From Coprothermobacterota bacterium (GTDB lineage: Bacteria > Caldisericota > JANLFM01), in contig JAPLHV010000068.1 in the NCBI GenBank assembly GCA_026389455.1, positions 1 to 37,645 on the forward strand: a stretch of DNA of 37,645 bases, in the 5' to 3' direction. The notes below the pieces were generated by a model. It saw nothing but the letters and a program-made list of their open reading frames with translations, made no database searches and was not told where the DNA came from. Position numbers and translations under genes: made by a program. Shown here one piece after another: positions 292 to 31,032 of this stretch. Numbering within the stretch: the stretch's first letter is position 1; every line of letters starts with the position of its first letter.

Positions 292-311
292 AGCTCCCGG
301 CAGGGTGTTCT
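292..311 (-). repeat. Single unit of the dispersed 18-base repeat family (terminal type)
   Basis: AGCTCCCGGCAGGGTGTTCT differs by one base from the copy at 5656-5675. It lies in the remains of the ISL3 transposase, between the part encoding EWR and the part encoding RHRYAE. Strand is given so that the GCCGGGGGCT form is the forward unit. Confidence 0.75.
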
Positions 312-561: not shown

Positions 562-659
562 TCAGTAGTGAAGTGACAGAAGACAACCGCTTTGGGGAAC
601 AACCAGCCCGAGGGTGGCACTCTCGCGACTATCTGCTCCACTTCAACACAGAACGCCCT

Positions 660-731
660 GCCGGGGGCTATCGAGTTGCCGGGGGCTATCGAGTTGCCGG
701 GGGCTATCGAGTTGCCGGGGGCTATTCAGCT
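660..731 (+). repeat. Four tandem copies of an 18-base unit
   Basis: GCCGGGGGCTATCGAGTT is repeated at 660-677, 678-695 and 696-713 without change, and a fourth diverging copy follows at 714-731. The array is preceded by GAACGCCCT. On the other strand it ends AGCCCCCGGCAGGG followed by CGTTCTGTGTT, a terminal sequence shared with the other loci of the family. The unit length is a multiple of three, so open frames run through it, but the repetitive translation is not a credible protein. Confidence 0.95.
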
Positions 732-4211: not shown

Positions 4212-5018
4212 ATGACTCCCAAAGGGGAATTGCAGCAGCTTGCTCGTCAACAGGAATTACGCCCTCAAGAAAGGACGGGGCGGTGGATCTTGGCCGTAAC
4301 TGCGTTGACCGTCCTGGCGTGGTCGGCATGGAAAGGGATGCGGCGGGTCGATGCCCCCCGCCAAGCCAACCTGGAGGGGTTAGAGGAGGAAGGCTTGGCC
4401 GAGAGTTTCACCCGGCTCAGCAGGATGCCCCAGTTCCGCGCTCTGCGCTGGATTTTCTTACACCGGTTAGCCAAATATCGGCCCTCCGGCCTAGTGGTCG
4501 ACATTGGCTGCGGCCCGGGGTTGCTGGTGGAAGCCATCGCCCTTCGCTATCCGGCTCTTCGTTTGGTCGGAGTTGATATCGCCGCCCCTATGGTAGCCCG
4601 CGCTTGTGAGCAGGTCGCGGCGAGCGGGTTGGCAGGGCGGGTGAGCTTTCGTGTCGGGGACGCCCAATCGCTGCCGTTTTCCGACGCCAGCGTAGATTTC
4701 CTTGTCAGCACCCTTTCCTTGCACCACTGGCCCGACCCAGTCGCCGCCTTGGCCGAGGCTTGGCGGGTGTTGCGGCCCGGTGGCCAATTCCTATTCTTTG
4801 ACTTGCGGCGGGATGCGCCGCGCTTCGCCTATCGCCTTGCCTGCCTGGTCACTCGCTTCGTCGTTCCCCTAGCCATCCGTCGCATCGGTGAGCCGCTCGG
4901 CTCCTTCCGCGCCGCCTATACAGCCAGGGAAGCGGAGCAGCTACTGACCGGCAGCCTCTTCGCCGATTGGTCGGTTGGTCTTGGCTCAGCTTGGCTTTTC
5001 CTTTGGGGTAGGCGCTGA
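4212..5018 (+). CDS. Class I SAM-dependent methyltransferase (methyltransferase 11 type)
   Basis: The 268-residue protein has motif I VVDIGCGPG (residues 95-103), the acidic end of beta 2 in VGVDIA, a GDAQSLPFSDASVDFLVSTLSLHHW motif II/III region (split here as GDAQSLPF and LSLHHW), and WRVLRPGG. Residues 25-40 (WILAVTALTVLAWSAW) form a hydrophobic segment unusual for this class and may tether the enzyme to the membrane. If translation began at the internal ATG at 4338 the segment would be lost. GGCGGGAAG just before 4212 supports the longer form. It is divergent from the GH3-like gene. The substrate is unknown; the UbiE-like layout suggests a small molecule or lipid. Confidence 0.85.
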   Translation: MTPKGELQQLARQQELRPQERTGRWILAVTALTVLAWSAWKGMRRVDAPRQANLEGLEEEGLAESFTRLSRMPQFRALRWIFLHRLAKYRPSGLVVDIGCGPGLLVEAIALRYPALRLVGVDIAAPMVARACEQVAASGLAGRVSFRVGDAQSLPFSDASVDFLVSTLSLHHWPDPVAALAEAWRVLRPGGQFLFFDLRRDAPRFAYRLACLVTRFVVPLAIRRIGEPLGSFRAAYTAREAEQLLTGSLFADWSVGLGSAWLFLWGRR

Positions 5019-5033
5019 GGCTGCGGACTGTCG

Positions 5034-5758
5034 ATGGACACAGTCGCCCGATCTTTTCCATTGCTGTTTATTTGGCTTGTTTTGGCATGGCTTGTCATCT
5101 TCGTCTCCATCCTGGTTGTACTCGACGTTTCCAAGCTCTCCTAGCTGGGATCGCCGGCGGCATCCTCTATTTCCTGGTGGATTACGGTATCTTCTACCTT
5201 GCCCTGGGCACAAGGGTCATCACAGGCGCTGACACCTTCCGGCTCCTTCTCTGGCTCAGCTTCAGCTACGGCCTTACCAATTTCGCTTGGATCTAGCTAT
5301 TGCTGGACCGCGACCGGCTGGCGCCCGAGTGGAGCATACTGATCATCAGTGCCTGGCTGGCGGTAGCTTTGCTCAGCCAGAACTTCAGCGGGGGCAGCCC
5401 GATGATCCAGATCAGCCGGGGCGCAGGTTCCTACCATGGAGCAATGGCCTTGATCCTCTTTACCGGCTATGCCTGGCTGAGTATGAGCAACATTCGCGCT
5501 CGAGCTCGGCGTTGTGCCATAGTGAGCATCCCGCGCCTGCTGGCCATCGGAATTTGCGTCCAATTGGCTTGGGAATCAGCGCTCCTCCTGAGCGGCATCC
5601 GCCCTCCCGGTATCAGTGCGCTGATCGTCAATTCCTTGATCGAGACCAACTTGGTAGCCCCCGGCAGGGTGTTCTAAATGCCGTACCTCTTCTGGATCCA
5701 CAAAGCCTTCAGCCGCCGCTGGCAGGAGGACTTGCGTCCAGTCTACAAGAAGGAATAA
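5034..5758 (+). pseudogene. Decayed multi-pass membrane protein gene
   Basis: The reading frame starts at 5034 with a hydrophobic helix (LLFIWLVLAWLVIFVSILVV), shifts frame between about 5130 and 5145, then continues as hydrophobic segments (LLAGIAGGILYFLVDYGIFY, LLLWLSFSYGLTNFAW). It meets an in-frame TAG at 5294, goes on through four or more further hydrophobic stretches (WSILIISAWLAVALL, AMALILFTGYAWL, LLAIGICVQLAWESALLL), meets a TAA at 5675 inside a repeat unit, and ends in the same frame with MPYLFWIHKAFSRRWQEDL and a stop at 5756-5758. One frameshift plus two stops make it a pseudogene. I do not recognise the family. It follows the methyltransferase by 15 bases and was probably once in its operon. 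Confidence 0.7.
5656..5675 (-). repeat. Single repeat unit inserted in the membrane-protein pseudogene
   Basis: AGCCCCCGGCAGGGTGTTCT matches the unit at 292-311 in 19 of 20 positions. It lies between codons for SLIETNL and MPYLFW and reads V-A-P-G-R-V-F-stop in the gene's frame, so it adds about eight codons and a stop without shifting the frame. Confidence 0.8.
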
Positions 5759-6101
5759 CGCTTCCTCTTCTCTGGATTGTCTGGTATCAGCCTTCAGTCA
5801 CAAATCTTTGGGCTGGGCTGCGGAAATTCCCACCGAGTGAGAATGAAAGCCATTGGGAACCTTGATCATCCCAGCTGACGGGAGTGGCACACATTCTTTA
5901 CCTAGAGGGGCCAGTCCTAAGACTGCAACCCACTTCAAATGAAACAAGGGAAGATCGTAGGCAGTGCGCCTCCGGACTTTCATCGAACCGTACCCATTTG
6001 ACTCTCTTCTTATCGTGTCAGGAAAGGAGAATCTCACATGCGGTTGCCGCACTGGGGTGCGGCGGTCCCGGGCGAGGGGGAATTGAGGGAGGAGGAACTG
6101 G
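5759..6101. other. Gene-free interval with a solo IS end and a REP-like element
   Basis: No convincing coding sequence is seen. 5928-5945 (ACCCACTTCAAATGAAAC) resembles the right end of the IS remnant at 781-798. A REP-like hairpin occupies 6045-6071, immediately beyond the stop of the gene at 6102, where it could act as a transcript end for the minus-strand operon. Confidence 0.5.
6045..6071 (-). repeat. REP-like hairpin element, copy 3
   Basis: On the minus strand this is the consensus form: a GGGACCGCC head followed by the core with arms GCCGCAC/GTGCGGC and loop CCCA. It lies about 30 bases past the end of the Mth938-like gene. Confidence 0.8.
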
Positions 6102-6464
6102 TCAGCAGGTGATGTGCAAGAGGGCAATCACGGCTCCCTTGGCCTCGTTCCAACGCTCGATCGCTTGTGGCGTCGGCAGAAGCTCCACTGCGCAATTCTT
6201 TTTCTGAAGGTACGCTGCTGCCTCTGGGGAGAGCACGACCAGCCCGGACTGGCCAGACCCTACGATGAGAAGCTCGGCGCCTTTTTCGAAGACATCTTCG
6301 GCCTCCTGTAGGGAAATAGTATGCGAGGTTCCGAAGACAGCCTTGGAAAGATCCTTTTTCCGCTTTTCCACCGACCCGTTCAGACGGATGACCGCATCGC
6401 ACTTGATCCGTTTCTCGTCCACGACCAGGTAACCGAAACCTGTCTCCTGGATCTTTGGTTTCAT
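6102..6464 (-). CDS. Mth938-like domain protein
   Basis: The 120-residue protein has the features of the Mth938/NDUFAF3 fold: an N-terminal GFGYLVVDEKRIKCDAVI strand pair, a central ELLIVGSGQSGLVVLSPEA segment matching the family's L-(I/V)-(I/V)-G-x-G-x-x-G-x-(M/V)-x-(V/L) motif, and VELLPTPQAIERWNE ending in ALLHITC (family form AALHLTC). It is small and soluble, with no enzymatic residues established. AGGAGG sits 8 bases before the ATG. It follows the molybdopterin lipoprotein by 54 bases on the same strand and is probably in its operon. Confidence 0.85.
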   Translation of the reverse strand: MKPKIQETGFGYLVVDEKRIKCDAVIRLNGSVEKRKKDLSKAVFGTSHTISLQEAEDVFEKGAELLIVGSGQSGLVVLSPEAAAYLQKKNCAVELLPTPQAIERWNEAKGAVIALLHITC

Positions 6465-18770: not shown

Positions 18771-19507
18771 TGGAAGAAGACACCCTGCCGGGGGCTGTCA
18801 AGCTGCCGGGGGCTGTCAAGCTGCCGGGGGCTAGTAGGGGCGACGCATGCGTCGCCCCTGCGCAGGCTGTGGAGTTGCTCGAGGAGCTCCCCTCGAGTGA
18901 AGCAAAAGACGACAGCGCCGCCGGCGAAGCTCGGCCCATCGACCAGGAACGGATCCAGCGAGCTGTGCGGGAGATTTTGGAAGCTATTGGCGAAGACCCC
19001 GAGCGGGAAGGGTTGCGCCATACCCCTGGAAGGATCGCCCGGATGTATGCCGAGTTCTTTTCCGGCAGTGAAGAGCAAGCCTTGCAACAGCTCGCTGTCG
19101 GTTTCAGGGAGCCGCACTCGGAGATGATCCTGATACGAAATATCGCTTTCCACTCGATTTGCGAACACCATCTGCTTCCCTTTTCAGGTTGCGCCCACGT
19201 TGCCTACATCCCACGGGGGAAGATCGTCGGACTTTCCAAGATTGCCCGCACGGTGGACATCCTGGCTCGTCGCCCGCAAATTCAGGAACGTTTGACTTCG
19301 CTCATCGCGGATGTACTGGAACGAGGGCTTGACCCTATGGGAGTGGCGGTGGTAGTGGAAGCTGAGCATCTGTGCATAGTCATGCGGGGAGTTAAGAAGC
19401 CGGGAAGCTTCGTCACCACCTCCGCCTTGCGTGGCGGCTTTCGCACCAACCCGGCAACCCGTGCCGAATTCTTTTCGCTGGTCGCCTCCGGGCGGGAGAG
19501 ACTCTGA
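18770..19507 (+). CDS. folE: GTP cyclohydrolase I with repeat-derived N-terminal extension
   Basis: The 245-residue protein carries the whole FolE core from about residue 58: [28 protein letters not shown] with the zinc ligands Cys131 and His134, [18 protein letters not shown], and [17 protein letters not shown] with Cys202. It makes dihydroneopterin triphosphate, the entry to folate and also to queuosine. FolE usually starts only a few residues before the core. Here residues 6-17 ([12 protein letters not shown]) are encoded by the 18-base tandem repeat, and the next dozen by a 24-base palindrome. The ATG is preceded by GAGGAA inside ftcD. Confidence 0.93.
18787..18834 (+). repeat. 18-base tandem repeat array within folE
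   Basis: Two full copies of GCCGGGGGCTGTCAAGCT (18787-18804, 18805-18822) and a partial third (GCCGGGGGCTAG, 18823-18834) follow ACACCCT. They are translated in frame as LPGAVK repeats. The unit differs from that at 660-731 in three positions (GTC-AAG-CT against ATC-GAG-TT). Confidence 0.92.
18836..18859. repeat. Perfect 24-base palindrome within folE
   Basis: AGGGGCGACGCA (18836-18847) is the exact complement of 18848-18859. It directly follows the repeat array and encodes part of the non-conserved FolE extension (SRGDACVAP). It belongs with the 351-371 palindrome to a GTAGGGGC...GCCCCTAC-like class. Confidence 0.9.
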
Positions 19508-24583: not shown

Positions 24584-24590
24584 AGAAACC

Positions 24591-24644
24591 AGCCCCCGGC
24601 AGCTAGACAGCCCCCGGCAGCTAAAAAGCCCCCGGCAGGGTGAT
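24591..24644 (-). repeat. 18-base tandem repeat array upstream of the malic enzyme
   Basis: Read on the plus strand the units are AGCCCCCGGCAGCTAGAC (24591-24608), AGCCCCCGGCAGCTAAAA (24609-24626) and the terminal type AGCCCCCGGCAGGGTGAT (24627-24644). It fills most of the 87-base gap between the phosphatase stop and the GTG of the malic enzyme, just before the ribosome site. Confidence 0.93.
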
Positions 24645-24670
24645 ACCATCCAGGAGAGGAGAAACCAATC

Positions 24671-30797: not shown

Positions 30798-30888
30798 TCA
30801 CAGGATCGCTCGGATCGCCCCGGCCTTCTCTTGGAAAAACAGGGTCGGGCATCCGGGCAGCGTCTCTTTGGGAGACGCCGAGTTCTTA

Positions 30889-30950
30889 ACCCGCAGCAGC
30901 CTGTTGACAGCACGCAGCAGCGAGTTGACAGCCCGCGGCAGCGAGTTCTG
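30889..30950 (-). repeat. Diverged 21-base tandem repeat related to the 18-base family
   Basis: On the plus strand: a 20-base first unit (ending CTGTTGAC), AGCACGCAGCAGCGAGTTGAC without its last base within 30909-30929, and AGCCCGCGGCAGCGAGTTCT from 30930. The unit is three bases longer than elsewhere, and the end GTTCTGTGTT matches the flank of the array at 660-731 read on the minus strand. It lies in the 235-base gap between the BshC-like gene and pdp; no gene is seen in this gap. Confidence 0.8.
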
Positions 30951-31032
30951 TGTTAGGCTATGACAGAGAAAAGACCGCACTGCCAGTTTCCCCTGGTGGG
31001 TTGAGCTGGGGGAGGCAGTGCGAGGAGAGGTC

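Follow-up and report, generated by a model that had tools for sequence, protein, structure and literature searches.

Probable recent mobility of a repeat of about 21 bp in a Coprothermobacterota genus

How did a short repeat unit come to lie inside a gene, beside a stop codon and in frame with the codons on both sides? The question arises at positions 5654-5677 of the window, that is, the whole stretch of 37,645 nucleotides analyzed here, which belongs to the draft genome of a Coprothermobacterota bacterium (G000, contig C201, 2.63 Mb). A previous sequence-only reading of this DNA had described an interruption of 24 bases containing the unit, to which it attributed the stop codon, and had proposed that the unit can be a mobile or slipping insertion and not only an intergenic feature. 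The closest relative, a genome of the same genus (G001), was used for comparison; the window and G001 displayed a DNA identity of 84% in an alignment of 1.1 kb spanning the host gene, with about 88% given for this region as well.

When the translation was checked, the flanking codons were found in one frame and the interruption read VAPGRVF-stop, as described. The length of 24 bases was not maintained, however: in the same gene of G001, which is intact and lacks the repeat, the net difference was a single gap of exactly 21 bp (about 21-24 bases had been anticipated for an intact homologue), and the frame was unchanged by the unit. At the junction, AACTTG-GGT-GTG-CCG in G001 corresponds to AACTTG-GTAGCCCCCGGCAGGGTGTTCTAA-ATG-CCG in the window, and the protein ETNL-GV-PYLFWIHKAL to ETNL-VAPGRVF-stop-MPYLFWIHKAF. 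The extra residues were absent in all 26 homologues obtained from many phyla in a scan of genome_contigs, where ETN(L/M) runs directly into G(V/L/M/I)P and the protein continues past the site as GxP...IH/IY/IF (26/26). The homologues thus neither share the eight residues nor lose the match downstream, the two outcomes that the reading had named as speaking against an insertion, and because none of them carries the extra residues the insertion was assigned to the lineage of the window. The unit length of 21 bp was fixed from other copies with unambiguous edges. The stop codon is supplied by the repeat only in part, since its T is the last base of the unit and the two A's belong to the host; the earlier attribution therefore stood for the T but not for the A's. 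No inverted repeat around the site was found in a local repeat search. The exact 20-mer of the unit had no matches in viral_contigs, and an Rfam scan of the whole window returned nothing beyond four tRNAs.

The host gene is a pseudogene. The interruption at the unit had been recognized previously, but two further lesions had been overlooked, a 1-bp deletion and an in-frame TAG, the latter at a position occupied by Trp in 25 of the 26 homologues and by Tyr in the remaining one (Table 1). The repeat as the killer of the host gene was consequently rejected, as these two lesions are also present and any of the three may have come first. Pfam and NCBIfam searches of the gene gave no match.

Table 1. 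Coordinates of the repeat copies, the host pseudogene and its lesions in the window
Positions	Strand	Feature	Basis or remark
294..311	+	Unit copy within a larger dispersed repeat	
650..725	-	Array of 18-bp period with GGGCG-type terminal unit at its end, within a larger dispersed repeat	
5034..5758	+	Pseudogene of a conserved membrane-like protein	G001 orthologue intact, 234 aa
5117..5118	+	Site of 1-bp deletion (frameshift)	Relative to G001
5294..5296	+	In-frame TAG	Trp in homologues
5655..5675	+	Inserted 21-bp unit TAGCCCCCGGCAGGGTGTTCT, lacking in G001	Alignment to G001, motif counts
5675..5677	+	TAA stop: last T of unit plus host AA	Edge of unit deduced from copies whose junctions are unambiguous
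18777..18832	-	Array of 18-bp period at the 5' end of folE	Together with neighboring palindrome, in-frame insertion of 72 bp, not in G001
24590..24645	+	Array of three units (56 bp) separating a stop codon from a malic-enzyme-like gene	Absent from G001
30888..30951	+	Array of CGC-GGCA-GCG subfamily, 21-bp period	One unit in G001, two more in the window (+42 bp)

The unit, YAGCCCCCGGCAGGGTGTTCT, is about 21 bp long and represents one of three related subfamilies. Its 18-mer CCCCCGGCAGGGTGTTCT, allowing up to 2 mismatches, matched 398 times in G000, 57 times in G001 and 5 times in the genome G003, none of the other 58 genomes having more than 2 matches, and matches of any kind occurred in 6 of the 61 genomes; the reversed pattern, used as control, had none in G000. 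In the window alone, 6 matches with up to 3 mismatches were obtained where 0.10 were expected. The abundance of the motif is far beyond chance, and the unit is common only in this genus, with a few copies in one member of the family. Two sister motifs, allowing up to 1 mismatch, appeared 270, 102 and 77 times (AGCCTGCGGCAGCATG) and 103, 51 and 2 times (AGCCCGCGGCAGCGTG) in G000, G001 and G003, respectively, and both were absent from the other 6 of the 9 genomes searched. A common plan, AGCC-XYZ-GGCA-X'Y'Z'-NG with complementary arms, was found in the three subfamilies. In a 726-kb sample, the stem arms around GGCA were matched in 232 cases (CCC/GGG 156, TGC/GCA 55, CGC/GCG 21) vs. 16 crossed, a matching among subfamilies that may stem from only two evolutionary events. 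Units internal to arrays (e.g., AGCCCCCGGCAGCTTGAT) were devoid of arm pairing, and the RNA folding energy of the unit was no better than that of shuffles. A literature search, which reached few subscription papers, found no published account of this repeat in Coprothermobacterota.

Other copies in the window are associated with genes that, from the appearance of their proteins, we take to be folE and a malic enzyme. The 72-bp insertion in folE sits directly after the start; the palindrome included in it, GTAGGGGCGACGCATGCGTCGCCCC at 18833-18860 after the array, has the look of a GTAG-type REP. The first 880 positions of the window form a larger composite dispersed repeat in which the unit appears repeatedly, along with a GGGCGGGTTTGAAACCCGCC palindrome and a CTGGGACCGCCGCACCCCAGTGCGGC motif, and similar flanks recur in the genome sample. 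A lone intergenic copy of the GCCGCACTGGGGTGCGGC motif lies at 6046-6070. Elsewhere in the sample, short degenerate repeat runs of ACTAAACCACTTAACCACT type were observed beside the unit (L063 about 4300-4400 and L062 about 6060-6110).

Empty sites were searched in a comparison of 884 kb from G000 and 756 kb from G001, in which alignment blocks no shorter than 500 bp covered 272 kb of the former. With a loose motif, 587 clusters of G000 had flanks and 437 of them were without a usable orthologous pair; with the strict motif, 51 of 216 clusters were testable, having unique flanks and an orthologous place, as flanks repeated in the sample had been deliberately excluded. Of these 51 copies, 43 had no counterpart in G001; the alignment showed a single clean gap for 27 and was more complex for the other 16. 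Their absence indicates a recent spread of the repeat family and bears out the mobility suggested for the unit. Chance matches of the looser motif, taken as control, presented no gap in 92 of 99 cases. Inserts were mostly 18n or 18n+3 bp in length (21, 36, 39, 54, 57, 72, and 108 among the clean ones), and new sites carried either one 21-bp unit or a series of 18-bp units with the same terminal unit at its end. Copies were found in both orientations, between and inside genes. No target duplication was detected at unambiguous junctions such as L100 15114, L098 14887, and L090 2016; a clean duplication of TA fits L063 9722 but was discarded, as it fails at the same three sites. An A stood to the left of the empty site in 12 of the clean cases (n = 27; P = 0.005 for a background of 21% A), a weak preference that gap placement can bias. 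A role as DNA-uptake sequence was also rejected, since the copies are inserted and tandem.

Insertions were considered as in-gene when they lay inside a G001 ORF of at least 300 aa and at least 30 bases from either end; two sites at the edge were excluded from the frame test. Twenty of the 43 new insertions were in-gene, so that, as had been proposed, the unit is not confined to intergenic DNA. Eighteen of these 20 had a length divisible by 3, vs. 11 of 21 in shorter or no ORFs (P = 0.015); for clean sites alone the difference was not significant (14/15 vs. 7/10; P = 0.27), and units of 18 and 21 bp favor multiples of 3 even without selection. A script found a stop in 3 of 15 in-frame inserts, the one in pyrG being due to off-frame placement of the gap (no stop by tblastn). 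In conserved genes, units were found on either strand, in frame and as hexapeptide repeats (argS, hisS, thyX, mutS2 and, in the window, folE). According to Pfam and NCBIfam, the hosts include arginyl-tRNA synthetase, histidyl-tRNA synthetase, ThyX, MutS2, and CTP synthase, along with a CHAD protein, a SpoIID-domain protein, an Xaa-Pro peptidase, and a PEGA protein; (VKMPGA)n, (VNLPGA)n, (APGNLI)n, PAAARP, and (CGSMST)n are among the inserted peptides. Several inserts are placed at a protein terminus or between domains: in hisS the insert separates the catalytic from the anticodon domain (codon 373), and in the Xaa-Pro peptidase it falls at codon 117, near the end of the N-terminal domain. In the CTP synthase gene pyrG (L098, G000:C238, about 19130-19270), a 132-bp insertion replaces the conserved AGTMS and nearby residues differ from those of G001. 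This interrupted pyrG is the only CTP synthase copy found in G000, which may point to a non-functional gene or to an incomplete draft. In one HD-domain gene and one histidine-kinase gene, a stop is introduced by the insert no more than 20 codons from the end, an event of the same kind as in the window gene.

We consider it likely that the unit represents a non-autonomous mobile repeat of very small size (about 21 bp), one of three subfamilies, which has spread recently through this Coprothermobacterota genus by insertion and growth of arrays in the way proposed here. A new copy would be inserted as single-stranded DNA folded at the XYZ-GGCA-X'Y'Z' stem, through a putative enzyme acting in trans, giving no target duplication and with a mild preference for A just upstream; arrays would then enlarge by slippage or unequal exchange. 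Insertions inside genes would usually add a short peptide repeat, and they could be tolerated because the steps are of 18 or 21 bp and most frames through the unit are open. Near the 3' end of a gene, an insertion may leave a new stop, as in the pseudogene of the window. More tentatively, and with some doubt, we would extend this reading to a mobile family of 18-21 bp, among the smallest known, that enters coding genes on either strand in frame, expands to hexapeptide repeats in housekeeping enzymes, and is moved by an unrecognized trans-acting enzyme on a hairpin of three base pairs.

A mobilizing enzyme was searched for and not found. One possibility, which we regard as unlikely, is that the unit is a REP of GTAG type and owes its movement to a resident RAYT/Y1 transposase. 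Eight Y1_Tnp matches are present in G000, the core of the unit is hairpin-like with no visible target duplication, and such REPs are located inside ORFs and provide stop codons to them according to one report (PMC3733652). Against this, the base before AG in the unit is C or T and the one before that is mostly A, the tag being usually ACAG or ATAG and not GTAG; beyond its 3 bp the stem has only weak outer pairs; adjacent units form direct tandem repeats and not inverted pairs; and at the three Y1-transposase loci inspected among the eight of G000 the unit did not adjoin the gene (nearest 2 kb). One Y1/RAYT gene (L183 3393-4352) is flanked by short inverted sequences of AATTGGGGTCACATCTTC type, which are not REPs.

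Arrays offered a second explanation, in which the unit is merely a slipping tandem repeat growing in place, without mobility. Neighboring units were 18 bp apart in 259 pairs, and arrays were homogeneous inside, adjacent 6-bp spacers being identical in 136 of 165 cases within arrays as compared to 9% between arrays. Arrays differed between G000 and G001 by whole units, in steps of 18 or 21 bp; at L100 17987 G001 has one more 18-bp unit than G000. Slipping, the other behavior suggested by the sequence-only reading, was thus observed, but as the whole explanation it is quite improbable, given the single 21-bp units found at unique places that are devoid of any seed motif in G001 (e.g., window 5655, L098 14887, and L090 2016). 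Dispersal by reverse transcription of an RNA intermediate, a route reportedly proposed for cyanobacterial SDRs, is equally improbable; no RVT_1 match was found in the five genomes searched, among them G000 and G001, both incomplete.

It could also be argued that the repeats are old and were precisely deleted from G001, the window representing the ancestral state. The motif was present in G001 for 8 of the 51 testable copies of G000, so some copies are older than the split. As a general explanation, however, this would need precise removal at 43 separate sites, and homologues from many phyla lack the insert of the window; in the reverse direction, 7 of 17 strict copies of G001 were missing from G000, each genome having its own set. 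We judge it highly improbable. That the inserts are artifacts of assembly or sequencing is hardly credible, for although G000 and G001 are drafts in many pieces (263 and 280 contigs), three diverged subfamilies recur in three separate genomes, frame is kept in most genes, and spacers are specific to each array.

The movement of repeats of about 20 bp has long been an open question, for which the two close genomes provide dozens of pairs of filled and empty sites. With three subfamilies at different stages of spread and inserts in conserved enzymes, the choice of target, the ends of the unit, the tolerance of proteins, and candidate enzymes become testable. The inserts also display a simple route by which proteins acquire short peptide repeats.

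Among known systems, the SDRs of Nostoc and its relatives, which Elhai and colleagues reportedly described in 2008, are said to be of 21-27 nt and high copy number, and to form several families with a small common hairpin and compensatory changes; recent mobility and nested or embedded copies are also attributed to them. Like the SDRs, the unit of about 21 bp occurs in many dispersed copies (398 near-copies) and has empty orthologous sites (43/51); its matched arms in three subfamilies (232 vs. 16) may correspond to such a hairpin, but folding is no better than in shuffles and the independent events are few. In contrast with the SDRs, it belongs to another phylum and has another sequence, expands as 18-bp tandem arrays and sits in frame in conserved protein genes, and no HIP-like host site was seen; precise insertion of SDR5 within HIP1 is cited in PMC4390886.

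In-frame location in conserved protein genes, with tolerance of the insert, is described for Rickettsia palindromic elements (RPEs) in PMC2229807 and PMC10969869, the former including one RPE-modified enzyme that is translated and active. The unit resembles them by lying in frame in argS, hisS, thyX, mutS2, folE, and the Xaa-Pro peptidase and SpoIID-domain protein genes, whereas RPEs are palindromes of 105-150 bp with terminal inverted repeats and the unit has 18-21 bp, no long palindrome, and tandem arrays. With GTAG/CGTC REPs and REPINs it shares a length of about 20 bp, a hairpin-like core, and the capacity to occur within ORFs and furnish them with stop codons, but it lacks a GTAG tag consensus and inverted pairs and does not adjoin the RAYT genes inspected. 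MITEs (e.g., NEMIS, RUP, ERIC), some of which are fused in frame to genes according to PMC2229807, are likewise non-autonomous and dispersed; the unit differs from them in being about five times shorter, with neither terminal inverted repeats of the usual size nor target duplication. The unit, then, fits no single family's full definition, and on this comparison it would stand closest to the SDRs by size, copy number, and possibly hairpin, and to the RPEs by its in-frame insertion.
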